From IMG/VR virus record IMGVR_UViG_3300025162_000098, positions 1 through 39,456 of that record: a DNA stretch of 39,456 nt; one strand, 5' to 3'. Origin of the DNA: a virus. The first letter of the stretch is position 1. The number at the start of each line of letters is the position of its first letter. Position numbers and translations under genes: made by a program. The notes beneath the pieces are model-generated. The model ran no database searches and was not told where the DNA came from. It saw only the letters and a list, made by a program, of their open reading frames with translations. Below, piece after piece: positions 8,735 to 39,456 of this stretch.

Positions 8735-8884
8735 ATGGGAAGAATAAAAAAATACCAGACAGAAGAAGAACGTATTCAAAAACAACTTGAATATAGTAAA
8801 ACATATTATTGGAAAAATAAAGATAAAGTCGATGGAAAAAACAAAGAACGTTATCATAGGAATATACAAGATAACAAGTCCTAG
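8735..8884 (+). CDS. 49-residue MGRI leader ORF overlapping a GIY-YIG gene (copy A)
   Basis: The ORF encodes MGRIKKYQTEEERIQKQLEY followed by SKTYYWKNKDKVDGKNKERY and HRNIQDNKS, 49 residues. Two relatives of exactly the same length occur at 22443 and 26241, and they share MGRI, a T..E(E/A) segment, YYW.NK and K.RY.RN. The ORF overlaps the first 53 bases of the GIY-YIG gene in another frame. Conservation in the overlap is partly forced by the GIY motif, but MGRI and YYW.NK lie upstream of the overlap and are not. The 'YY..NK.K' pattern resembles the linker repeats of the HNH proteins in this window. Possible roles are a leader peptide, a translational coupler, or the remnant of an invaded gene. 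Confidence 0.6.
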   Translation: MGRIKKYQTEEERIQKQLEYSKTYYWKNKDKVDGKNKERYHRNIQDNKS

Positions 8885-9512
8885 TGGAAAAATTTATATA
8901 GGTCAAACTACTAATTGGAAGAAGAGGTTAGGATATTATAATAGATTAGAATGTAAAGGTCAAGTAAAATTATATAATTCATTAGTTAAATATAAATCTG
9001 AAAATCATATATTTGAATTTATAGAGGAATGTTCGAGTGAATTATTAAATGAACGAGAAATATATTGGGGTGATTTTTACGATGTATTGGGTGAGAATGG
9101 ATTAAATCTGAAAGAGTTAGGTATAGGTGGAAAATGGAATGATGAAATGAAAGCTAAAATGAAAGAAAGATGCAATACTCCTGAACATAAAGCTTTCATA
9201 TCTAATATCCATAAAGGTAAAATAACTTCTTCAGAAATTAGAGCTAAGATGAGTGAAACTCATTTATCAATGAATAAAACTCAACCAGAAGAATTAAAAA
9301 TAAAAAGAGGCTTATATAAAAAGCATTCTCCAGAACATATAGAAAGATTTATTAAATCGGCTTCTAAACCTATTATACATCTTCCATCAGAAGTGATATA
9401 TGAAAGTATAACTCAAGCCGCTAAAATATTAGGAATAGATCATTCTAATATAATAAGAATATTAAAAGGAAGACAAAATAATTATAAAGGAACAACATTT
9501 AAATATATTTAA
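8832..9512 (+). CDS. GIY-YIG homing endonuclease with NUMOD-type DNA-binding tail (copy A)
   Basis: 226 residues from the chosen ATG. The GIY-YIG core is at residues 8-25 (IIGIYKITSPSGKIYIGQ), with downstream WKKRLGYYNR and an EIYWGDFYD helix containing the expected acidic residue. The C-terminal half has NUMOD3-like helices (KMKERCNTPEHKAFISN, SEIRAKMSETH) and a NUMOD1-type helix-turn-helix (ESITQAAKILGIDHSNIIRIL). It is a free-standing mobile gene that nicks target DNA to copy itself. It sits between two structural genes. An in-frame ATG at 8787 exists, but 8832 matches the spacing (97 bases from the leader-ORF ATG) in the two sister copies. Confidence 0.85.
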   Translation: MEKTKNVIIGIYKITSPSGKIYIGQTTNWKKRLGYYNRLECKGQVKLYNSLVKYKSENHIFEFIEECSSELLNEREIYWGDFYDVLGENGLNLKELGIGGKWNDEMKAKMKERCNTPEHKAFISNIHKGKITSSEIRAKMSETHLSMNKTQPEELKIKRGLYKKHSPEHIERFIKSASKPIIHLPSEVIYESITQAAKILGIDHSNIIRILKGRQNNYKGTTFKYI

Positions 9513-9517
9513 AAATC

Positions 9518-10168
9518 ATGGGATTTCAGAATAATCAACAGATTACAATAGACTGCATTTTGACTCGCGCTGGAAGGGCCGCACTCGCAAAAGGTGATGG
9601 GTCATTTAATATTACACAATTCGCCCTTTCAGACGACGAAATAGATTATACACTTTATAATCCAACACACCCATCCGGTTCTTCATATTATGGAGAAGCT
9701 ATAGAAGGTATGCCTCTTCTAGAAGCATTCCCCGATGAAAATCAGATTATGAAATACAAATTGGTTACATTACCAAGAGGTACTGCTAAAATGCCTGTAT
9801 TAAGTATTGGTTATCCAGCCATTATATTAAAACAAGGTGATACACTATCGATTACACCAGCCACTTTAAATTATCTTGGTAATACAACTACCTATGAAAC
9901 AAGTGGATATGTAGCAACAATTGCTGATGCTAGAACAATGTCTTCATTTGAAGGAGTAGGCAAAACAAATGCTGCAGCTACTTCAAATATTTCACTTGGA
10001 ACTAATCTTTCTAAATCAGTTACAGGTACTCAAATAAATCTTAAAGCAACAACCGTCAATACATTATATGGTTCTAATACACAACTCAAAACTACACTTA
10101 CTGTAGTAGGTATTGATAGTGGTGCTCGTATAGTGATTCCAGTAACTATTAATAAAATAACAATTTAG
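9518..10168 (+). CDS. Conserved virion-type structural protein
   Basis: 216 residues. The N-terminal half is distinctive: DCILTRAGRAALAKGDGSFN, then ITQFALSDDEIDYTLYNPTH and MPLLEAFPDENQIMKYKLVT. I recall this pattern from uncharacterised structural proteins of marine T4-like phages. The C-terminal half is Thr/Ser-rich beta sequence (NTQLKTTLTVVGIDSGARIV), as in Ig-like or fibre domains. Its promoter probably lies at 8627, now separated from it by the endonuclease cassette. The next gene follows after 3 bases. A tail or fibre-assembly role is inferred; no enzymatic motif is visible. Confidence 0.6.
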   Translation: MGFQNNQQITIDCILTRAGRAALAKGDGSFNITQFALSDDEIDYTLYNPTHPSGSSYYGEAIEGMPLLEAFPDENQIMKYKLVTLPRGTAKMPVLSIGYPAIILKQGDTLSITPATLNYLGNTTTYETSGYVATIADARTMSSFEGVGKTNAAATSNISLGTNLSKSVTGTQINLKATTVNTLYGSNTQLKTTLTVVGIDSGARIVIPVTINKITI

Positions 10169-16005: not shown

Positions 16006-16037
16006 CTATGTTTTTCTTTAATCCTCCTCCTTTTAAT

Positions 16038-16907
16038 ATGAACGAAAATAAAAAATGTACCAGATGTAGTGAAGTTAAATCTTTAGAAGAATTTAGTAAT
16101 AGGAAATATAATAGAGATGGGAAATCTGTTTATTGTAAAGAATGTGTTAAAAAAGAAAGAGAAGAACAAAAACAATATAAAATAATATATAATTATGTAA
16201 TTCCTAAAGATACAAAAATATGCAATAAATGTGGTGAAACTAAATCTTTAGATGAATTCCATAATCTTAAAAGAAGTAAAGATGGTAAACAAGGTTATTG
16301 TAAAGAATGTAGTAAAATATATATTGAAAATAATAAAGAACATTTAAAAGAATATAGTAAAAAATATTCTATAGATAATAAAGAACATTACCAAGAATAT
16401 CAAAAACAATATAATAAAGAACACAAAGAAGAAAGATTAGAATATCAAAAAGAATATGATAAAACTGAAGGAAGAAAAGTATATCATCAAAAACATTTCC
16501 AAAAACATAAAAGAGCAAGAGTAACCCATCAAAACGAATATAATAAGGAAAAACGAAAAACAGATCCATTATATAAATTATATGATTGTATTCAAACTAG
16601 AATATATGGTTCTTTAAAGAAAAAGGGTATAGTAAAATCCAAACGAACCGAAGAAATGTTAGGTTGTACTATTGAAGAATTTAAATTATACATAGAAAGT
16701 AAATTTGAGAGCTGGATGAGTTGGGATAAATATGGTCTATACAATGGTGAATTTAATTATGGTTTCGACCTTGACCACATTATACCCGTCTCAAGCGCAC
16801 AAACAGAAGCAGACCTCCTCACCCTAAACCACTACTCAAATTTCCAACCGCTTTGTAGTAAAATAAACCGCGACATCAAAAAAGCAAGACTCGATTATGA
16901 ATCCTGA
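16038..16907 (+). CDS. HNH homing endonuclease with two zinc ribbons
   Basis: 289 residues from the ATG following the CCTCCTCC stretch; an in-frame ATG at 16008 would add ten odd residues (MFFFNPPPFN). Two zinc-ribbon modules come first: CTRCSEVKSLEEF...YCKEC and CNKCGETKSLDEFHN...YCKEC. A tandem linker of about 12-residue 'Y...NKEH..EY' units follows. The C-terminal HNH core is FDLDHIIPVSSAQTEADLLT, then LNHYSNFQPLCSKINRDIK. It is a free-standing mobile nuclease. Its last 150 bases are nearly the same DNA as the HNH gene at 35760 and are richer in C than their surroundings. The stop overlaps the next gene by 11 bases. Confidence 0.85.
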   Translation: MNENKKCTRCSEVKSLEEFSNRKYNRDGKSVYCKECVKKEREEQKQYKIIYNYVIPKDTKICNKCGETKSLDEFHNLKRSKDGKQGYCKECSKIYIENNKEHLKEYSKKYSIDNKEHYQEYQKQYNKEHKEERLEYQKEYDKTEGRKVYHQKHFQKHKRARVTHQNEYNKEKRKTDPLYKLYDCIQTRIYGSLKKKGIVKSKRTEEMLGCTIEEFKLYIESKFESWMSWDKYGLYNGEFNYGFDLDHIIPVSSAQTEADLLTLNHYSNFQPLCSKINRDIKKARLDYES

Positions 16908-19804: not shown

Positions 19805-20773
19805 ATGACTTACATTTATATTTTAGAAAGAAACGAAATCCCATTTTATGTTGGTAAAGCAAAAGATTTTATTAGGAGAAAAGGCAAACATAAAGAATTA
19901 TATGGTAAAGATATAATTATGACTATAATTGATAGTTGTGGGGATGAATATGAATGTTGGAAACCATTAGAAAAATTTTGGATATCATATATTAAATTTT
20001 TAGGATTTGAATTAACTAATAAAAATAATGGTGGAGGAGGTCCTTCAAAATATACTGAAGAATCTAAAATAAAAATGAGAAAACCACGAAAAGAAGGAAC
20101 TGGTGCTAAAATATCTAAAACTTTATTAAAAAACAATCATTCAAAATATTACACAGATGATGTAAAGCAAAAAATGAGTAATGGAATGACCGGTTTAAAA
20201 AGGGGACCTATTTCTGAAGAAACAAGAATAAAAATTAAAGAAGGATTAAAAGATCATTCAAAACATTATACTCCTGAAATTTGTCAAAAAATGAGAATAG
20301 CATTAAAAGGAAGTCATGGTGGACCACTTTCTGAAGAACATATAATTAAGATGAAAGAAGGTAGACGAAAAAAATCAAAAAGAGTATTTCAATATGATTT
20401 GAATGGAAAATTTATTAAAGAGTGGAGTGGGAAAGGAGAAATATCAGATTGGGTTAAAGAAAATGAAGAAAGAGCTAGAACCCAAAATGTAATATCTCAA
20501 ATAAATGATTGTTGTATAGGTAAAATAATAAGTTGTTGGGGCTATATATGGAGATTTAAAGATGAATTTATTCCTGTAATTCCTAAATATTATCCTATTG
20601 AACAATATTTAGATGATAAATTTATAAATGAATTTTATAATGAAATAGAAGCTGAAAATTATATTATAGAAAATAAATTAAGTAATAATAAAGATAAACC
20701 AAGAGATTTATTAAAATTGAGTATAAAAAAAGATCGAAAATTTTGTGGGTTTAAATGGAAATATAAAAAATAA
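19805..20773 (+). CDS. GIY-YIG homing endonuclease, divergent type with NUMOD3 repeats
   Basis: 322 residues. The GIY-YIG core is at the very N-terminus in the variant form (TYIYILERNEIPFYVGKAKD, residues 2-21), with FIRRKGKH following and a helix (CWKPLEKFWISYIKFLG) holding the expected acidic residue. Next come about five NUMOD3-like units (for example SKYTEESKIKMRKPRKEGTG and LSEEHIIKMKEGRRKKSK). A NUMOD1-like module (VFQYDLNGKFIKEWSGKGEI) and a basic tail finish it. It lacks the upstream MGRI leader ORF that the other three GIY-YIG genes have. It ends 6 bases before the FAD-dehydrogenase gene. Confidence 0.85.
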   Translation: MTYIYILERNEIPFYVGKAKDFIRRKGKHKELYGKDIIMTIIDSCGDEYECWKPLEKFWISYIKFLGFELTNKNNGGGGPSKYTEESKIKMRKPRKEGTGAKISKTLLKNNHSKYYTDDVKQKMSNGMTGLKRGPISEETRIKIKEGLKDHSKHYTPEICQKMRIALKGSHGGPLSEEHIIKMKEGRRKKSKRVFQYDLNGKFIKEWSGKGEISDWVKENEERARTQNVISQINDCCIGKIISCWGYIWRFKDEFIPVIPKYYPIEQYLDDKFINEFYNEIEAENYIIENKLSNNKDKPRDLLKLSIKKDRKFCGFKWKYKK

Positions 20774-22442: not shown

Positions 22443-22592
22443 ATGGGAAGAATTAAACAACATTTAACTAAGGAAGCCAAATTGGCTGCTAAAAATAAAG
22501 CTTCTCACAAATATTATTGGAATAATAAACAAAAATGTGATGAAGAAGCAAAAGAACGCTATTATAGGAATTTACAAAATAACCAGTCCTAG
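22443..22592 (+). CDS. 49-residue MGRI leader ORF overlapping a GIY-YIG gene (copy B)
   Basis: The ORF encodes MGRIKQHLTKEAKLAAKNKA, then SHKYYWNNKQKCDEEAKERY and YRNLQNNQS, exactly 49 residues as in copies A and C. It ends in TCC TAG inside the GIY-YIG core of the overlapping gene. Its ATG is 97 bases from that gene's ATG. Because the -10-like core ends only 2 bases upstream, it may be translated from a leaderless message or not be translated at all. Confidence 0.6.
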   Translation: MGRIKQHLTKEAKLAAKNKASHKYYWNNKQKCDEEAKERYYRNLQNNQS

Positions 22593-23301
22593 TGGTAAAA
22601 TTTATATAGGACAATCCGTTAATATAGATGAAAGGAAGAAAGTTTATAAACGTATTAACTCATTAGTTGGACAGCCTAAAATATATCGTTCAATAAATAA
22701 GTATGGTTTCGAAAATCATACTCATGAGATAATTGAAATATGTTCTATAGAACAACTGGACGAACGCGAAACTTTTTGGAAAAAATATTATTTAGAACAA
22801 GTCAATAACGATTGGCAACAAGTATTATTTTGTGAATTATACGATAATGGTGGAGGTCCTAAATCTGAAAAGACAAAACTTAAAATGAGAAAACCTAGAT
22901 CGGAAGAAGCCAAAAAGAATATGAAATATCCTAAATCGGATAAATTCAAAGAAATAGTAAGGTTAGCTCATATAGGTAAACCTAAATTAGCTGCTCGAGG
23001 CATACTTAGATCAGATGAATCAAAATTAAAGATGAGTTTATCTCGAATGGGTCAATCAATATCTGAAGAAACCAAAATAAAAATGAGTTTAGCTAAGAAA
23101 GGGAAACCTAATTTGAATAAAGGAATACCCAAATCCGAAGAATTTAAGAAACACATGAGAAAACCATGTGTGATTAAAGGAGTAGAATATATTTCTAGAT
23201 GGGAAGCTGCAGAAATATTAGGAGTGACAGCAAATGATGTTAATCATTGGATACTTAATCCAAAACCTAAATATGATGATTGTTATTGGTTACACAAATA
23301 G
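22540..23301 (+). CDS. GIY-YIG homing endonuclease (copy B)
   Basis: 253 residues from the ATG; a GTG directly upstream is also possible. The core is AIIGIYKITSPSGKIYIGQS (residues 6-25), then NIDERKKVYKRINS and LDERETFWKKYYLEQ. Several NUMOD3-like units follow (GGGPKSEKTKLKMRKPRSEE, SDESKLKMSLSRMGQSISEE, SEETKIKMSLAKKGKPNLNK). A C-terminal helix-turn-helix (SRWEAAEILGVTANDVNHWI) should read the target site. It is close in sequence to the 8832 copy across the catalytic core. The next gene, at 23325, follows after 23 bases. Confidence 0.85.
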   Translation: MKKQKNAIIGIYKITSPSGKIYIGQSVNIDERKKVYKRINSLVGQPKIYRSINKYGFENHTHEIIEICSIEQLDERETFWKKYYLEQVNNDWQQVLFCELYDNGGGPKSEKTKLKMRKPRSEEAKKNMKYPKSDKFKEIVRLAHIGKPKLAARGILRSDESKLKMSLSRMGQSISEETKIKMSLAKKGKPNLNKGIPKSEEFKKHMRKPCVIKGVEYISRWEAAEILGVTANDVNHWILNPKPKYDDCYWLHK

Positions 23302-23604: not shown

Positions 23605-24351
23605 ATGCCTGCAAAATCATCCCAAGAAGAATTTATTAAAAAAGCTAATCTGAAACATAATTTTTATTATGATTATTCATTGGTAGAATATATTGATGCT
23701 AAAATTAAAGTAAAAATAATATGTCCAAAACATGGTGTATTCGAACAACAACCTAATAATCATTTATTTGGTCAAGGATGTGTTTGGTGTATGGGTGATA
23801 GAGTAAAAAAAGCTAGAACATCCAATACATTTGATTTTATTAATAAATCTAAAAAAATCCATGGGAATAAATATGATTATTCTTTAGTTAATTATAAAGG
23901 AGGGAAATATAAAGTTATAATAATTTGTCCAAAACATGGTGAATTTCTTCAAACTCCTTTTGCTCATTCAAGTCCATCAATGACACAAGGGTGTCCATTT
24001 TGTAAAATATCAAAAGGAGAAGATGAAATAGAAAAATATTTATTGAAAAATAATATATTATATAAAAGAGAGCTTAGATATAAAAATTGTATAAACCCAA
24101 AAACAAATAAAACTTTACCTTTTGATTTTTATATTCCTGATTTAAATTTAATAATAGAATATCATGGTGAACAACATTATAAAAAAATGGGGGGTTATTT
24201 TGAGGAAAGAGATGGAGGATTAGAAGGAAGACAATATAGGGATAATATTAAAAAACAATATTGTTTAAATAATAAAATAAATTTTTTAGAAATATCATAT
24301 ACAAATTTTAATAAAATAAATTTAATATTAGATGAATACTTTACAAAATAA
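23605..24351 (+). CDS. Predicted Vsr/PD-(D/E)xK-type homing endonuclease with zinc-ribbon repeats
   Basis: 248 residues. Two repeated N-terminal modules occur: 'YDYSLVEY...KVKIICPKHGVFEQ...GCVWC' and 'YDYSLVNY...KVIIICPKHGEFLQ...GCPFC'. Each has a C-x2-H plus C-x2-C zinc-ribbon pattern (DUF723-like). The C-terminal nuclease-like part begins GEDEIEKYLLKNNILYKREL and continues LPFDFYIPDLNLIIEYHGEQ HY, matching the Asp and Glu of Vsr-like/PD-(D/E)xK folds. Such proteins are a fourth homing-endonuclease class in phages, but they are also often annotated only as hypothetical. The stop overlaps the next P-loop gene by 20 bases, so the 3' end has been fitted onto that gene. Confidence 0.7.
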   Translation: MPAKSSQEEFIKKANLKHNFYYDYSLVEYIDAKIKVKIICPKHGVFEQQPNNHLFGQGCVWCMGDRVKKARTSNTFDFINKSKKIHGNKYDYSLVNYKGGKYKVIIICPKHGEFLQTPFAHSSPSMTQGCPFCKISKGEDEIEKYLLKNNILYKRELRYKNCINPKTNKTLPFDFYIPDLNLIIEYHGEQHYKKMGGYFEERDGGLEGRQYRDNIKKQYCLNNKINFLEISYTNFNKINLILDEYFTK

Positions 24352-26240: not shown

Positions 26241-26390
26241 ATGGGGAGAATAACTAAATACAAAACAATAGAAGAGAAGAAACATGCTCAGCTATTGGCT
26301 TCCAAAAAATATTATTGGAATAATAAAGAACAAGAAGATGGCAAAGCAAAGGCTAGGTACCATAGGAATTTACAAAACAGTAAATCCTAA
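26241..26390 (+). CDS. 49-residue MGRI leader ORF overlapping a GIY-YIG gene (copy C)
   Basis: The ORF encodes MGRITKYKTIEEKKHAQLLA, then SKKYYWNNKEQEDGKAKARY and HRNLQNSKS, again 49 residues, ending in TCC TAA. The start-to-start distance to the overlapping GIY-YIG gene is 97 bases, as in copies A and B. Here the leader between the -10-like core and the ATG is 13 bases, so translation of this copy from its own message is the easiest to imagine. Confidence 0.6.
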   Translation: MGRITKYKTIEEKKHAQLLASKKYYWNNKEQEDGKAKARYHRNLQNSKS

Positions 26391-27048
26391 AGGAAAAATT
26401 TATGTGGGTCAATCTATAAATATAGAACGTAGAGAAGAAGAGTATAGAGGATCAAGATGTAAAGGACAAAAAAAATTGTATTATTCTATTATAAAATATG
26501 GTTGGGACAATCATACTCATGAAATAATAGAAGAATGTTCTATAGACCAATTAGACGAACGCGAAATATATTGGGGAATGTTTTATGAAGTATTAGGTAA
26601 GAATGGATTAAATTGCATGTTGGGGAGTGGTAAAGGATATGTGAGTGATGATACCTTAGAAAATATAAGAAAATCCATGAAAAATAGAGTGTATTTTCAT
26701 TCTCCTGAAACTCTAATTAAGATGAGGAAGCCTAAACCTGAAGGATTTGGTGAAAAAGTAAGTAAAGCTAATCTGGGGAGACATGCTGGTATGAAAGGAA
26801 AATCTCAAAAATTTAAAGGAAGAATATCTCCAAATAAAGGGAATTCATATAGTCATTCTCAAGAATCAAATGAAAAGAAATATAAACCTATTTTACAATT
26901 TGATTTACAATATAATTTTATTAAAGAATGGCCCAGTATAAAACAAGCTAAAGAAGATTTAAGTATAGTAAATATATCAGTAGCATTAACGGGAGATAAT
27001 AAAACAGCTGGTGGATTTATTTGGAAATATAAAAATGAACAAAAATGA
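26338..27048 (+). CDS. GIY-YIG homing endonuclease (copy C)
   Basis: 236 residues from the chosen ATG; the frame is open to 26284, but that region belongs to the leader ORF. The core is TIGIYKTVNPKGKIYVGQSI (residues 7-26), then ERREEEYRGSRCKGQKKLYY and DEREIYWGMFYEVLGKNGLN. NUMOD3-like pieces (SPETLIKMRKPKPEGFGEKV) and a NUMOD1-type module (ILQFDLQYNFIKEWPSIKQA, then a helix-turn-helix) complete it. It ends with a 4-base ATGA overlap onto the terminase gene, so terminase may be translated by coupling from this message. Confidence 0.85.
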   Translation: MAKQRLGTIGIYKTVNPKGKIYVGQSINIERREEEYRGSRCKGQKKLYYSIIKYGWDNHTHEIIEECSIDQLDEREIYWGMFYEVLGKNGLNCMLGSGKGYVSDDTLENIRKSMKNRVYFHSPETLIKMRKPKPEGFGEKVSKANLGRHAGMKGKSQKFKGRISPNKGNSYSHSQESNEKKYKPILQFDLQYNFIKEWPSIKQAKEDLSIVNISVALTGDNKTAGGFIWKYKNEQK

Positions 27049-28726: not shown

Positions 28727-31700
28727 ATGGCTGAAAAAGACGTTTTTTCAAGATTAAAAAGATTATTCTCTTCAAATATTATGGTACGTAATATTGGGGG
28801 TGATCAGATTAAGGTTATAGATATAAATACAATCCAAACAGGTGGAGAAGTTAAAACTAACTCTATACAAGATAGATTTAATAGAGTTTATACTACCAAC
28901 CCATCATCTCTATATGGATCACAATTCAATCAGAATTATAAATTTTTAAGACCACAACTATATTCTGAATATGATTCGATGGATATGGATGCCATTATAG
29001 CATCCTCCCTAGATATTATGGCAGATGAATCTACTTTGAAAAGCGATATGGGAGAAATACTTCAAATACGTAGTTCAAATGATGATGTTCAACAGCTTTT
29101 ATATAATTTGTTTTATGATGTTTTAAATATAGACTTTAATTTATGGTCATGGATTCGCCAAATGTGTAAGTATGGTGATTTTTTCCTTAAATTAGAAATA
29201 GCAGAAAAATATGGTGTATATAATGTAATTCCATATACTGCATATCATATGGAGCGTCAAGAAGCTTATGATTCTAAAGATCCATCGGCTGTTCGTTTTA
29301 AATATTATCCTGATGGAGTAATGGCTTCAAGTACTGGGATGTATGCTTCTCCAAACACTAATGTAACGGATGTTAATGGAATATATTTCGATAATTATGA
29401 AATGGCTCATTTCCGTTTATTATCAGATGTAAATTACTTACCTTACGGCCGCGCAATAATTGAACCAGCACGCAAGTTATTTAAGCAATATACTATGCTT
29501 GAAGATGCAATGTTGATTCATCGTATATCAAGAGCCCCAGAAAAACGTATATTTTATATTAATGTAGGAGCTATTCCTCCAAATGAAGTAGATGCATTTA
29601 TGCAGAAGACTATTTCAAATATGAAACGTACTCCATACATTAATAAAGAAACGGGTGATTATAATTTGAAATTTAACATGCAAAACATGCTAGAAGATTT
29701 TTATATTCCTATTCGTGGAAATGATATTGCTACTAAAATAGAAACAGCCAAAGGTTTAGAATATACTGGAATAGAAGATGTAACTTATTTAAGAGATAAA
29801 TTATTTGCTGCATTAAAAGTCCCACGCGCATTTATGGGGTACACTGCTGACTTAAATGGAAAATGTATAGATCCATTAACAAAGATTCCTTTACTTGATG
29901 GAAGAATATTAACTGTTCAAGAAATTATTGATGAATATAATAATGGAATAAAAAATTATGTATATTCTTTAAATACTGAAACAAATAATATAGTTCCGGG
30001 GGAAATAGAATGGGCTGGTTTTACTAGAATGAATACACAAACTATTAAAGTTTGGTTAGATAATGGAGAATTTATTAGATGTACACCTGATCATAAATTT
30101 TTAACAAGAGATGGAGAATGGAAAGAAGCACAAGATTTGCAAGAAAATGAATCACTTATGCCTCTTTATCTTAGAAAATCCACAGAAAAGAAAATAAATG
30201 GATACGTTGAAGTATATAATCCTAGTGATGGGAAATATAAATTTGTACATAGATTAGTAGCTGAACATTATGGTTTGAAAGAAGATATAAAAGATGTAGT
30301 TATTCATCATGATAATTGTAATAAATTGAATAACAATCCAGAGAATTTAAATTGTTCTATGAATTTCTGGGAACATAGACAATGGCATATAGATCATACT
30401 AATTTATGTCATACTAATGAAGCAAATGCCAAACGAAAAGCAACTTTGATAAGATTGATGGAAGAGGATGGTGATTATGCCAAAATGAGAAGAAGAGTAT
30501 GCAAAGAAAATTCTGTTGCCTTAGTTGAGTGGATTAAAGAAAACGGAGCATCTAGAAAAGGATTTGTTAAAAATCCTATAAGAATTTGTAAAGGATGTGG
30601 GATGGAATTTGACGTAACTAATATAGAACCTTCTAAAAGAAATAATATTTATTGTTCTGATAAATGCCGTTCCGAAAATTGGGTTTCTCCTTTCAAAAAT
30701 ATATCCATTGAAAATTTAATAGAGGCAGCTAGTGATAGTAAAAATTTTAAAGAATTAATGGGTAAATTAAATATAGGATGTCATGCTGTGTTGAGGAAAT
30801 TATTAAAACATTATAAATTTGAAACTCCAAATTTTATATTAGAATATATGCCTGCTGCTCATTCCAATATATATTTTATGAATCAATTTCCAGAAACTAA
30901 TCAATTTTATATAGATAATTTCCACCCAGAACACAATCAGTGGAAGGAGAAATATTCATATAAAAATCATAAAGTATCTAGAATAGAATGGTGTGATGAT
31001 CTTATTGATACATGTGATATTACAGTAAAAGAATTTCATAATTTTGGTACTGATGCTGGAGTTATTATTCATAACAGTACATTAGCCGCCCAGGACATAC
31101 GTTTTGCTCGTACTATAGAACGTATACAACGCATTATAGTTTCTGAACTTAATCGTATTGCTTTAGTTCATTTATATGCTCAAGGTTATAGAGATGAAAT
31201 GCTAACCAATTTTGAATTATCGATGACTACTCCTTCCATCATATATGATCAGGAACGCATTGAATTAATGAAATCGAAAGCAGAATTGACTACTACTCTT
31301 CTTGAACAAAATTTATTACCATCAGATTGGATTTACCATAATATATATCATTTAAGTGAAGATCAATTTGATGAAATGCGTGATTTAGTAAGAGAAGATA
31401 CTAAACGTAAATTCCGTCTTACACAAATAGAAAACGAAGGTAATGATCCTCAAGAATCTGGTAAATCATATGGTACACCACACGATCTAGCATCTCTTTA
31501 TGGTAAAGGTCGAATGTATACTGATGCAGGTAATGTACCTGAGGGTTATAATACTGATGCTGACTTAGGTCGTCCACAAGAAACTACATTATCAAGAAAT
31601 AAACAAGAAGATAATTTTGGCAAAGATAGACTAGGGGTTCAAGGTATGAAAGATAAGGATAAAAATGATTCTGATTCTATAAGAACTCAATACAAAGGTG

Positions 31701-31849
31701 GTGGTCCGTTAGCTCTTGAAGGATCTAAAAAAGCACTTATTCAAAACCAAAAAGTACTATCTAAAATTGATAAATTGTATGGAAAGAAGATGATATTCGA
31801 ACAAGATAACAACATTCCATTCATGGATGAAGAGCAATTACTAGATTAA
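28727..31849 (+). CDS. 20: Portal protein, T4 gp20-like, interrupted by an intein
   Basis: 1040 residues as encoded; about 636 after removal of the 404-residue intein (T4 gp20 has 524). Extein landmarks: YKFLRPQLYSEYDSMDMDAI, the portal crown and wing region (FRLLSDVNYLPYGRAIIEPA and DAMLIHRISRAPEKRIFYIN), and DKLFAALKVPRAFMGYTADL just before the intein. After it come STLAAQDIRFARTIERIQRI and an acidic C-terminus. The dodecameric portal forms the head vertex that docks terminase and later the neck. The intein must be spliced out for function, because it cuts the highly conserved 'GK/STLA..DIRFA' segment. Confidence 0.93.
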   Translation: MAEKDVFSRLKRLFSSNIMVRNIGGDQIKVIDINTIQTGGEVKTNSIQDRFNRVYTTNPSSLYGSQFNQNYKFLRPQLYSEYDSMDMDAIIASSLDIMADESTLKSDMGEILQIRSSNDDVQQLLYNLFYDVLNIDFNLWSWIRQMCKYGDFFLKLEIAEKYGVYNVIPYTAYHMERQEAYDSKDPSAVRFKYYPDGVMASSTGMYASPNTNVTDVNGIYFDNYEMAHFRLLSDVNYLPYGRAIIEPARKLFKQYTMLEDAMLIHRISRAPEKRIFYINVGAIPPNEVDAFMQKTISNMKRTPYINKETGDYNLKFNMQNMLEDFYIPIRGNDIATKIETAKGLEYTGIEDVTYLRDKLFAALKVPRAFMGYTADLNGKCIDPLTKIPLLDGRILTVQEIIDEYNNGIKNYVYSLNTETNNIVPGEIEWAGFTRMNTQTIKVWLDNGEFIRCTPDHKFLTRDGEWKEAQDLQENESLMPLYLRKSTEKKINGYVEVYNPSDGKYKFVHRLVAEHYGLKEDIKDVVIHHDNCNKLNNNPENLNCSMNFWEHRQWHIDHTNLCHTNEANAKRKATLIRLMEEDGDYAKMRRRVCKENSVALVEWIKENGASRKGFVKNPIRICKGCGMEFDVTNIEPSKRNNIYCSDKCRSENWVSPFKNISIENLIEAASDSKNFKELMGKLNIGCHAVLRKLLKHYKFETPNFILEYMPAAHSNIYFMNQFPETNQFYIDNFHPEHNQWKEKYSYKNHKVSRIEWCDDLIDTCDITVKEFHNFGTDAGVIIHNSTLAAQDIRFARTIERIQRIIVSELNRIALVHLYAQGYRDEMLTNFELSMTTPSIIYDQERIELMKSKAELTTTLLEQNLLPSDWIYHNIYHLSEDQFDEMRDLVREDTKRKFRLTQIENEGNDPQESGKSYGTPHDLASLYGKGRMYTDAGNVPEGYNTDADLGRPQETTLSRNKQEDNFGKDRLGVQGMKDKDKNDSDSIRTQYKGGGPLALEGSKKALIQNQKVLSKIDKLYGKKMIFEQDNNIPFMDEEQLLD
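29864..31075 (+). mobile_element. Intein with HNH homing endonuclease in the portal gene
   Basis: 404 residues (portal residues 380-783). Splicing blocks: Cys1 with block A (CIDPLTKIPLLDGRILTVQE), block B (CTPDHKFLTRDGEWKEAQDL) and block F/G (DTCDITVKEFHNFGTDAGVI, then terminal HN). The +1 extein residue is Ser. The endonuclease part has HRLVAEHYGLKEDIKDVVIH HDNCNKLNNNPENL, an HNH fold with LNCSMNFWEHRQWH. A C-x2-C...C-x3-C zinc finger (CKGCGMEF, then YCSDKCRSENW) and a helix-turn-helix-like segment (NFKELMGKLNIGCHAVLRKL) follow. All splice residues are present, so self-splicing is expected. The DNA boundary is exact at the Lys-Cys and Asn-Ser junctions. Confidence 0.93.
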
Positions 31850-35163: not shown

Positions 35164-35757
35164 ATGCTACTAGTAGAAACCCAAAATTTTAAATGTTCTC
35201 CTATACAATTACTAGAAGGTATTAAATCTCCTGCTGGTAATCCAATAGTAGAAGGTATATTAACTACTGTTGAATTAAAAAACGGTAATGGTAGATATTA
35301 TCCTCGTAAGTTGTGGGAAGACGAATTAGAAAAGTATAGCGAGTTTGTGAATGAGAACCGTGCAATGGGTGAATTAGATCACAGCGATGAACAAGTGGTC
35401 AATCTTAAAAATGTATCTCATGTTATTAGAAAAATATGGTGGGATGGTGATAACATAATGGGTCGTATTGAAATATTACCTACACCAGCTGGAAATATAT
35501 TAAGATCATTGATTGAAAATAATGTAACTATAGGTGTATCATCTCGTGGTGTGGGAGAACTGGAACAAAAGGGTGGAGTAATGGAAGTTAGTAGCTATAG
35601 TCTTATTTGTTGGGACGCTGTATCAAATCCATCAAATCCAGGTTCATTCCCTAAACTCGTAAACGAATCCTTAATTAGTCCTAAATATAATTATTCTCAA
35701 GTTAATAATATAATTAGAGAAATTCTTTGCTCTAAAGGAAGCTGTCCTATTTTTTAA
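35164..35757 (+). CDS. 21: Prohead protease, T4 gp21-like (S80 family)
   Basis: 197 residues; T4 gp21 has 212. The catalytic His is probably His73 in MGELDHSDE. The Ser is 126 or 127 in IGVSSRGVG, and Asp151 in LICWDAVSNPSNPGSF is the third candidate. VEGILTTVELKNGNGRYYPR is the usual N-terminal block. It matures the head by cutting scaffold, capsid and internal proteins after (L/I)-x-E. The N-terminus contains LLEG, a possible self-cleavage site. The last codons (AAGCTGTCCTATTTTTTAA) are duplicated at the end of the HNH gene that follows after 2 bases, so the original gene may have had a slightly different C-terminus. Confidence 0.9.
   Translation: MLLVETQNFKCSPIQLLEGIKSPAGNPIVEGILTTVELKNGNGRYYPRKLWEDELEKYSEFVNENRAMGELDHSDEQVVNLKNVSHVIRKIWWDGDNIMGRIEILPTPAGNILRSLIENNVTIGVSSRGVGELEQKGGVMEVSSYSLICWDAVSNPSNPGSFPKLVNESLISPKYNYSQVNNIIREILCSKGSCPIF
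35739..35757 (+). repeat. Left 19-base direct repeat at protease/HNH junction
   Basis: AAGCTGTCCTATTTTTTAA ends the protease gene. The partner at 36353-36371, AAGCTATCCTATATTTTAA, ends the HNH gene; 17 of 19 bases agree and both end in the stop codon. Confidence 0.7.
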
Positions 35758-35759
35758 AT

Positions 35760-36371
35760 ATGTGTGAAACAAAGAAATGTACTAAGTGTGGTGAAATTAA
35801 ATCTTTAGATGAATTTTATAATAATAAAAACAACTGTAAAACATGTTATAGAAAAAATCAAAAAGAATATAACCTTACCACAAAAGAAAATCAAAAAGAA
35901 TACCATAAAGAATATTATATTAATAACAAAGAAAATGTCAAAGAATATAATCTTATTAATAAAGAAAAAAGGAAAGAACTTTATAGAGAATATAATAAAA
36001 AAAGACGTCAAACTGACCCAATATTTAAGTTAAAGAATAATATCGCAGTAAGTATAGTTCATTCTATTAAAGTAAAAGGATTTCAAAAGAATAAACGAAC
36101 AGAAAAAATCCTTGGTTGCTCAATGGAATTTTTCAAAGCATATCTTGAATCACAATTTCTTCCTTGGATGTCGTGGGATAACTACGGTTTATACAACGGA
36201 GAATTTAATTACGGTTTCGACCTTGACCATATTATCCCTATATCAAGCGCACAAATAGAAGCAGACCTCCTCACCCTAAACCACTATAGTAATTTCCAGC
36301 CATTATGTTCTAAAATAAACCGCGAAATTAAAAGAGATAATCTTAATTATATAAGCTATCCTATATTTTAA
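35760..36371 (+). CDS. HNH homing endonuclease with zinc ribbon
   Basis: 203 residues. One zinc ribbon (KCTKCGEIKSLDEF, then NCKTCYRKN) is followed by a tandem 'EY..NKEN.KEY' linker and a C-terminal HNH core, FDLDHIIPISSAQIEADLLT with LNHYSNFQPLCSKINREIK. It is a shorter sister of the 16038 gene with one ribbon missing and an almost identical core, including 30 identical bases in a row (36257-36286 with 16805-16834). It starts 2 bases after the protease stop with no promoter motif of its own, so it must be co-expressed with the protease. Its final codons (SYPIF) imitate the protease's end (SCPIF). Confidence 0.85.
   Translation: MCETKKCTKCGEIKSLDEFYNNKNNCKTCYRKNQKEYNLTTKENQKEYHKEYYINNKENVKEYNLINKEKRKELYREYNKKRRQTDPIFKLKNNIAVSIVHSIKVKGFQKNKRTEKILGCSMEFFKAYLESQFLPWMSWDNYGLYNGEFNYGFDLDHIIPISSAQIEADLLTLNHYSNFQPLCSKINREIKRDNLNYISYPIF
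36353..36371 (+). repeat. Right 19-base direct repeat at end of HNH gene
   Basis: Partner of the repeat at 35739-35757, with two mismatches. It would be the original 3' end of the protease gene if the endonuclease arrived between the copies. Confidence 0.7.
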
Positions 36372-36399
36372 CCACCCTTTCGATAGTATCGCTAGGCCT

Positions 36400-36430
36400 T
36401 TGCCATTCCCTTACAGGAATGGCAATTTCT
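36400..36430 (+). terminator. Hairpin terminator after the HNH gene
   Basis: A perfect 10-bp stem TTGCCATTCC (36400-36409) with GGAATGGCAA (36416-36425) has a 6-base loop and is followed by TTTCT. It separates the protease-HNH unit from the scaffold-capsid unit. Confidence 0.75.
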
Positions 36431-36570: not shown

Positions 36571-37503
36571 ATGATAAAACGAGACATTCTGGCTGAAGCC
36601 ATAGCTGAAGCTAAAGTTGTTAAAGAAACTGCCATCGAAAATGCTAAAGCAGCATTAACCGAATCATTTGCCCCTCACTTGAAATCTATGCTATCTGCTA
36701 AATTACAAGAAATGGAAACAGAAGATTTAGAAGAAGAAAATTTCATTCCAGAAGAAGCAGTAAACGAAAATGAACAAGTGGATGAATTAGACGAACTATT
36801 AAAAGAAATCGATTCTGAAAACGAATTAGACGAAACTAAAAAAGAAGATGAAGCTGAAGAAGAAGTTCAAGAAGCTGACCCAGAAAAAGACGCAGAATCT
36901 ACCGAAGAAGATGAAGAACTGGATATAGAAGACATGTCTGAAGAAGACCTTAAATCATTTATTGAAGATGTAATTAATGACATGATCGAAACTGGCGAAT
37001 TAGAACCAGGTGAAGGACATGAATCAGAAGAAGAAAATCCAGAAGGTGAAGAAATCGACATCGAAAAAATCGAAGGCGAAGAACAACCAGAAGAAGTAGA
37101 TTTAGACGAAATGTTAAAAATTGGTGAAGAACTTGAAGACGAATCTCTATCAGACGAACTCGACGAAGCATACCAAACCATCGAAACATTGAGAACTCAA
37201 ATATCTGAAGTTAAAGTTTTAAACGCAAAACTTCTTTACTCAAACAAAATTTTCCAATCAAAAACATTAACAGAAGGTAAAAAATTGCAAGTACTGCATG
37301 CCTTCGAAAAAGCAACAACGATTAAAGAAGCTAAAGCCACTTATGAAATTTTGAAAGAAAATCTTGACACAAAAACAATTTCAAAACCTCAATTTAGAGG
37401 AGCAGCTTCAAAAACAATTACCCCTATTAAAGAATCCAAACAGCCTATTGTTGAAGTAGAAAACCAATACGCAAGATGGAAAACACTAGCGGGATTAGAT
37501 TAA
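36571..37503 (+). CDS. 22: Prohead scaffold/core protein, T4 gp22-like
   Basis: 310 residues; T4 gp22 has 269. It begins MIKRDILAEAIAEAKVVKET, containing LAE|A and IAE|A, typical T4 protease sites. The middle (about 50-200) is extremely acidic and rich in Glu, as in gp22-like cores. The C-terminus (EAYQTIETLRTQISEVKVLN, AKLLYSNKIFQSKTLTEGKK and a helix to RWKTLAGLD) matches the pattern of marine gp22-like proteins, and carries another LTE|G site. It forms the transient core inside the capsid shell and is degraded by the gp21-like protease. Position between protease and capsid is canonical. Confidence 0.88.
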   Translation: MIKRDILAEAIAEAKVVKETAIENAKAALTESFAPHLKSMLSAKLQEMETEDLEEENFIPEEAVNENEQVDELDELLKEIDSENELDETKKEDEAEEEVQEADPEKDAESTEEDEELDIEDMSEEDLKSFIEDVINDMIETGELEPGEGHESEEENPEGEEIDIEKIEGEEQPEEVDLDEMLKIGEELEDESLSDELDEAYQTIETLRTQISEVKVLNAKLLYSNKIFQSKTLTEGKKLQVLHAFEKATTIKEAKATYEILKENLDTKTISKPQFRGAASKTITPIKESKQPIVEVENQYARWKTLAGLD

Positions 37504-39271: not shown

Positions 39272-39456
39272 ATGAAAATATGTAAAAAATGTGGGCAAGA
39301 AAAAGAATTATCTGAGTTTTCTAATAAGTCTAGTGAAAAAGATGGCAAACACAGATATTGCAAACAATGTATGGCAATTGATGTTAAAAATTATTATCAA
39401 ACATCTGGTAGAAAAGAATCAGATTATTATAGAAATTATCAAGAAGAAAATAGAGA
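39272..39456 (+). CDS. HNH-type homing endonuclease, 5' end only (runs off the window)
   Basis: 61 residues are visible: MKICKKCGQEKELSEFSNKS with KDGKHRYCKQCMAIDVKNYY. This C-x2-C...C-x2-C zinc ribbon with 'LSEF....DGK...YCK.C' is the same module that opens the HNH genes at 16038 and 35760, followed by the same kind of Tyr/Asn/Lys linker (YYQTSGRKESDYYRNYQEEN). The HNH core should lie beyond the window. It has its own promoter motif behind the capsid terminator. Confidence 0.7.
   Translation, partial: MKICKKCGQEKELSEFSNKSSEKDGKHRYCKQCMAIDVKNYYQTSGRKESDYYRNYQEENR

Follow-up and report, generated by a model that had tools for sequence, protein, structure and literature searches.

In the 39,456-nt stretch of T4-like phage DNA analysed here (IMG/VR record IMGVR_UViG_3300025162_000098, positions 1 to 39,456; hereafter the window), the 3' end of the prohead protease gene is present in two copies, with an HNH endonuclease gene between them. 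The favoured reading, to which a probability of roughly 0.7 is given, is an invasion of the protease 3' end by a free-standing HNH gene of the PHROG 1035 type, with doubling of the gene end through one-sided repair of the break. At the level of sequence comparison, it is established that the site is empty in most relatives, that the HNH gene stands between two copies of the gene end and that the second copy is contiguous with the ancestral downstream region; by the same comparison, the last codons and the stop of the HNH gene derive from copy 2. In this way, a selfish endonuclease gene could settle in an essential phage gene with neither intron nor intein involved, the doubled end keeping the gene whole.

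The protease gene, the HNH gene and the repeated gene end

Both ORFs are intact, and the HNH start codon follows the protease stop by 2 nt, in a different frame (Table 1). The initial annotation had claimed that the last 19 bases of the protease gene recur as the last 19 bases of the HNH gene, with 17 of 19 identical, TAA at both ends and S(C/Y)PIF encoded by both, and that the HNH gene sits exactly between these copies. Direct comparison bears out the two statements, each copy being flush with the stop of its own ORF.

Table 1. Features of the protease locus and of the paralogous HNH gene in the window
Feature	Position	Strand	Basis
Prohead (head maturation) protease gene, gp21-like, 197 aa	35164..35757	+	Peptidase_S77, E=3.1e-26; PHROG 207, E=3.9e-49; relatives in T4-like phages
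Copy 1 of the gene end, AAGCTGTCCTATTTTTTAA (SCPIF-stop in the protease frame), still the functional protease end	35739..35757	+	Cys of the motif invariant in 146 relatives
HNH endonuclease gene, 203 aa	35760..36371	+	PHROG 1035 ('endonuclease VII'), E=1e-13; D-H...N motif invariant in 51 homologues; HNH secondary structure in the model
Copy 2, AAGCTATCCTATATTTTAA (SYPIF-stop in the HNH frame), native protease end, displaced and translated as the C-terminus of the HNH protein	36353..36371	+	17/19 to copy 1; contiguous with ancestral downstream sequence; absent from HNH homologues
Ancestral post-protease region: GATAGTATC stem (36382-36390) and terminator-like hairpin (36400-36425)	36372..36425	+	Motif enrichment; fold z=-3.6
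Next head gene, scaffold-like (function inferred from position)	36571..37503	+	Neighbour order in relatives
Paralogous HNH gene (HNH1), about 60% identical, at another site, no SYPIF tail; its stop and the start codon of the following gene (16897) overlap	16008..16907	+	

As a control, the last 19 bases were compared within 992 non-redundant, adjacent, co-directional gene pairs from 278 loci. The protease/HNH pair of the window is the only one that exceeds 14 of 19 identical terminal bases, and the next best are three pairs at exactly this value. In a free search of the flanks, the score of the repeat (13) is only slightly higher than the maximum reached in 40 shuffles (11). Judged from these comparisons, the repeat carries weight through its placement at both stops and through what relatives show, rather than through its length. 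A small unrelated ORF between the protease and scaffold genes of another locus (L102:8118-8474) ends in SCSIS and resembles the protease end at 14 of 19 bases, a likeness that is probably due to chance.

The class of the HNH protein was examined with profiles and a structural model. No Pfam match was obtained for the protein itself, and the Pfam HNH family is matched weakly by two of seven homologues (best E=0.017). Among 51 homologues, D156, H157 and N178 or N187 are invariant. The AlphaFold model used was computed from these 51 sequences (mean pLDDT 86), the model from seven sequences being poor; it contains a strand at 153-157, a second strand at 179-183 and a helix at 185-192, corresponding to the beta-beta-alpha core of HNH enzymes. 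The HNH matches of a PDB fold search with this model are weak (E above 1). On the profile match together with the D-H and N residues placed in the modelled fold, the ORF is predicted to encode an HNH endonuclease of PHROG 1035 ('endonuclease VII'-like).

The homologues of this protein, including the paralogue of the window, stop soon after ...INRDIKRDxLxY(E), without PIF, and the window protein runs on past this end with (I)SYPIF. Residues 198-203 have a pLDDT below 50 in the model and lie outside the strand-strand-helix core. As the (S)YPIF end is missing from the homologues and the tail is outside the fold core, the tail is taken to be protease DNA read as HNH protein. The cysteine that is invariant in 146 proteases is a tyrosine in the HNH copy, a change to be expected in a copy that has ceased to be the protease terminus.

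Empty and occupied sites behind the protease gene

Relatives of the protease were gathered from IMG/VR by protein, by alignment and by the DNA pattern of the gene end. No insert is present at 119 of the 143 distinct protease ends, where the next head gene begins within 330 nt, and the site is filled by this or other HNH genes in several relatives. Such presence and absence at one site is the behaviour by which free-standing homing endonucleases are recognised. The HNH-free relatives carry a single copy of the end, reading ...GxCPIF-stop, then a terminator or intergenic region and then the next head gene, which in empty-site relatives starts 150-260 nt past the protease stop. The tail motif GxCPI(F) was found in 146 of 148 proteases recognised by the core motif alone, and its cysteine in all 146. 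Among the relatives gathered, neither an HNH-carrying sister resembling the window nor a very close HNH-free relative was found, the closest protease being about 65% identical.

The region behind the insert was compared in the same way. In 20 of 148 relatives, a GATAGNATC stem is found no more than 45 nt behind the protease stop (0.0025 expected per window). In the DNA analysed here, it occurs only once, at 36382, 10 nt past the HNH stop. The HNH stop is followed by CCACCCTTTCGATAGTATCG and then by the strong hairpin listed in Table 1, and this sequence resembles that found behind the protease stop of relatives such as L205 and L239 (CCCCTCCTTCGATAGTATCG), with which the best alignments have CTTTCGATAGTATCG / CTTCGATAGTATCG in common. 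The sequence directly behind the protease stop of the window, that is the HNH gene, gave no such match to the post-protease sequence of relatives. Since what follows the HNH gene corresponds to what follows the protease gene in relatives, copy 2 and everything downstream of it are regarded as the ancestral end of the protease gene.

The initial annotation had predicted that relatives lacking the HNH gene would read straight through one copy of the repeat, which they do; the finding named there as fatal, an empty-site protease end unlike both repeats, was not encountered among the 146 relatives with the tail motif. It had also proposed that the homing event rebuilt the protease terminus and left the original end to the endonuclease. 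This holds in so far as the displaced native end forms the end of the HNH gene and the sequence behind it matches that of relatives, while the rebuilding by homing is the best inference only.

A second case of the same kind was found at the same gene. In locus L135, an HNH gene of another clade and two small ORFs lie between two protease ends with 52 of 54 nt identical. The first end occupies positions 8842-8896, and the second begins at 10099 and is followed by the ancestral terminator; the stop codon of the last inserted ORF falls within copy 2. By its sequence, L135 is read as an independent repeat of the event at the protease site, and the 3' end of the protease gene as a repeated target. 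No second copy of the protease end was detectable at the HNH cassettes occupying the same site in L004, L007, L084 and L150. As most of the same-site cassettes are without a duplicated end, the duplication is not an obligatory product of insertion. A special (immune) variant of the 3' end, common to the HNH-carrying proteases, was considered and rejected, the ends varying as in HNH-free relatives. Downstream of the protease gene in L078 and L114, the companion ORFs are kept, and L078 retains ...NNRSKGSKFL, the end of the HNH protein; the two look like cassettes minus their HNH gene.

Origin of the doubled gene end

Under the favoured reading, the event would begin with a double-strand break near the end of the recipient protease gene. 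Repair from an HNH-carrying donor would involve homologous copying on the left side only, along the protease body, and would import the protease end of the donor with the HNH gene directly behind it. The new right end would then be joined without homology to the broken end of the recipient, which retains its own last 19 bases. The protease would stay whole, and from the displaced end the HNH gene would acquire both its stop codon and a brief C-terminal extension. The repeat would be as long as the stretch between the break and the gene end, 19 nt here and 54 in L135, and the scar marks a candidate cut site in the protease gene, about 19 nt short of its end. When homology is available on only one side during homing in T4, breaks are repaired illegitimately, with junctions at microhomology (PMC2988022).

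The principal alternative is a target-site duplication, in which a staggered break or a transposase-like insertion was filled in and 19 bp were copied to both sides. Direct repeats flush with both borders of the insert are what it predicts, and the copies are nearly identical in both the window and L135. Taken alone, the window is fitted equally well by this simple process, and its 19 bases are too few to tell whether copy 1 came from a foreign donor. Nevertheless, no transposase is present, and the repeats of related events vary widely in length (19, 36, 54, 68, 76 and 117 nt), unlike those of a fixed stagger. Staggers of 19-54 nt are not known for HNH enzymes, which also counts against it.

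The evidence bearing most directly on this alternative comes from HNH genes at other genes, whose products belong to the same PHROG as that of the window. In L274, the 3' end is duplicated over 117 nt (39 codons including the stop) with 63% identity; 19 of the 29 codon changes are synonymous and 24 of the 43 base differences fall at third positions. In L313, the 5' end of terL is duplicated around the HNH gene, and 14 of 18 codon changes are synonymous. Duplicated 5' ends were also identified in L279 (seven codon changes synonymous, five not), in L339 (35 of 36 nt) and in L320, where the HNH gene is truncated. A relic cannot gather mainly synonymous changes, and the copies of L313 and L274 are therefore taken to have diverged as working alleles before they were joined. 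Their pattern of divergence is better explained by an imported donor end than by a target-site duplication, and the synonymous divergence in L313, L274 and L279 suggests that a foreign donor supplied the copy adjoining the gene. With these points considered, a target-site duplication is rated as unlikely.

The survey of HNH loci behind these cases was made at the nucleotide and protein levels, and its control is noisy: low-complexity sequence and repeated promoter or terminator elements score too, and 9 of 590 control ORFs reach a score of 20, some of them HNH genes themselves. Individual cases are therefore claimed, and no rate or frequency. Four candidates were set aside, namely L387 (repeat resembling tRNA sequence), L297 (repeat not at a recognisable gene end), L057 (a repeated leader) and L212 (acidic repeats). 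The HNH gene of L274 (2915-3690) is located in a podovirus-like tail region and represents the clearest diverged duplicated 3' end. In L313 (857-2073), the full-length downstream copy of terL is broken just after GGTSA (the Walker A region) by a 47-nt non-coding insert, which forms a 21-bp hairpin and includes an in-frame stop; with both sides joined, the terL protein matches Terminase_3.

It is very improbable that the SYPIF end arose by coincidence or by selection instead of common descent with the protease end. The repeat is indeed only 19 bases long, with a free-search score just above the shuffles, but the pair is the one outlier among the 992 and its copies are placed at both stops. In addition, the SYPIF tail is absent from HNH homologues, and a parallel case exists at the same gene. 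The contiguity of copy 2 with the ancestral post-protease region largely refutes this explanation.

The tail might alternatively have been put to use, the C-terminus of the protease directing proteins into the prohead and the captured copy causing the HNH protein to be packaged. In favour, the protease C-terminus shows strong conservation of GxCPI(F) and the HNH protein has a close copy; nevertheless, this explanation is barely credible, as the sole invariant residue, the cysteine, is lost in the copy, the tail is predicted to be unstructured and shared DNA ancestry already accounts for the match. A self-splicing intron or an intein, with the insert removed from RNA or protein and the repeat as exon boundary, can practically be discounted even though HNH genes often ride in such elements and the portal gene of the window has an intein, since the protease stop precedes the insert, the HNH gene lies out of frame behind it, the HNH ORF takes up nearly all of the insert and leaves no space for a ribozyme, and the window has no Rfam match at gathering thresholds.

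Known systems and other mobile genes of the window

The closest parallel is provided by mobile endonuclease ORFs (mORFs) of fungal mitochondria, which replace the C-termini of genes such as atp6 in Allomyces and atp6, atp9, cox2 and nad3 in Glomus; their layout is gene, new C-terminus, endonuclease ORF and displaced native C-terminus (PMC3630166). The window presents the same arrangement, with the endonuclease ORF directly behind the gene, the 3' end doubled around it and the native end displaced downstream, and L135 is parallel to it. In the diverged phage cases, as in Glomus, most differences between the copies are at synonymous sites (PMC3630166). There are, however, differences: the fungal enzymes are LAGLIDADG or GIY-YIG endonucleases, whereas the phage gene is of HNH type, and the duplicated end of the window is only 19 nt long and is read as the C-terminus of the endonuclease itself. 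By analogy, the principle would be that known from fungal mitochondria, and the case of the window its HNH-type phage counterpart.

Among phages, the arrangement resembles that of the free-standing homing endonucleases of T4-like phages (Seg, Mob), which are solitary HNH or GIY-YIG genes beside conserved phage genes (PMC2988022), the present protein being a putative homing endonuclease. It also resembles mobA / gene 60 of T4 and mobE / nrdA of Aeh1, in which an HNH gene is inserted in an essential gene that is reorganised around it. In contrast to these genes, which are split in two, the protease gene is whole and its end doubled. L313 is closer to mobA / gene 60, the hairpin insert in its terL resembling the translational bypass element of gene 60. 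The T4 homing literature consulted, including the review cited above, describes split genes and co-conversion but not duplicated gene ends, and where a recent survey of phage nuclease genes speaks of duplication, a different sense is meant. No phage report of gene-end doubling was found in the open-licence papers searched; an earlier report may exist.

L135, L274, L313, L279 and L339 suggest that such events recur, that they leave a readable scar of invasion and that foreign gene ends may be imported by them. A wider proposal is put forward tentatively, as a real possibility that falls short of a favoured view: HNH genes of the PHROG 1035 type may be widespread phage cassettes of a gene end plus an endonuclease, which would replace the 3' or 5' terminus of an essential gene by a donor allele, push the native terminus aside and, at a junction overlapping host DNA, take their own stop or give the host gene a new start. 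If true, such cassettes would be an unrecognised source of mosaicism at phage gene ends.

The 3' end of the paralogue HNH1 falls within the start codon region of its downstream neighbour (GATTATGAATCCTGA). The same kind of overlap is present in L313 and L274, between the HNH stop and the start of the host gene segment that is duplicated there. HNH1 is 100% identical in IMGVR_UViG_3300009502_000145. A search for its empty site through the adjoining kinase returned only an identical contig, and flanking duplications above the level of shuffles were not found for the other endonuclease ORFs of the window. The portal protein gene (28727-31849; Portal_T4, Intein_splicing) carries an intein with an HNH_3 domain. 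Further endonuclease-like ORFs are located at 8787-9512, 19805-20773, 22537-23301, 26284-27048, 23605-24351 and 39272-39456, the types among them being GIY-YIG/NUMOD, a DUF723 protein and a third HNH gene cut by the end of the window. On these predicted genes, the region is unusually heavily invaded by endonuclease-like ORFs.
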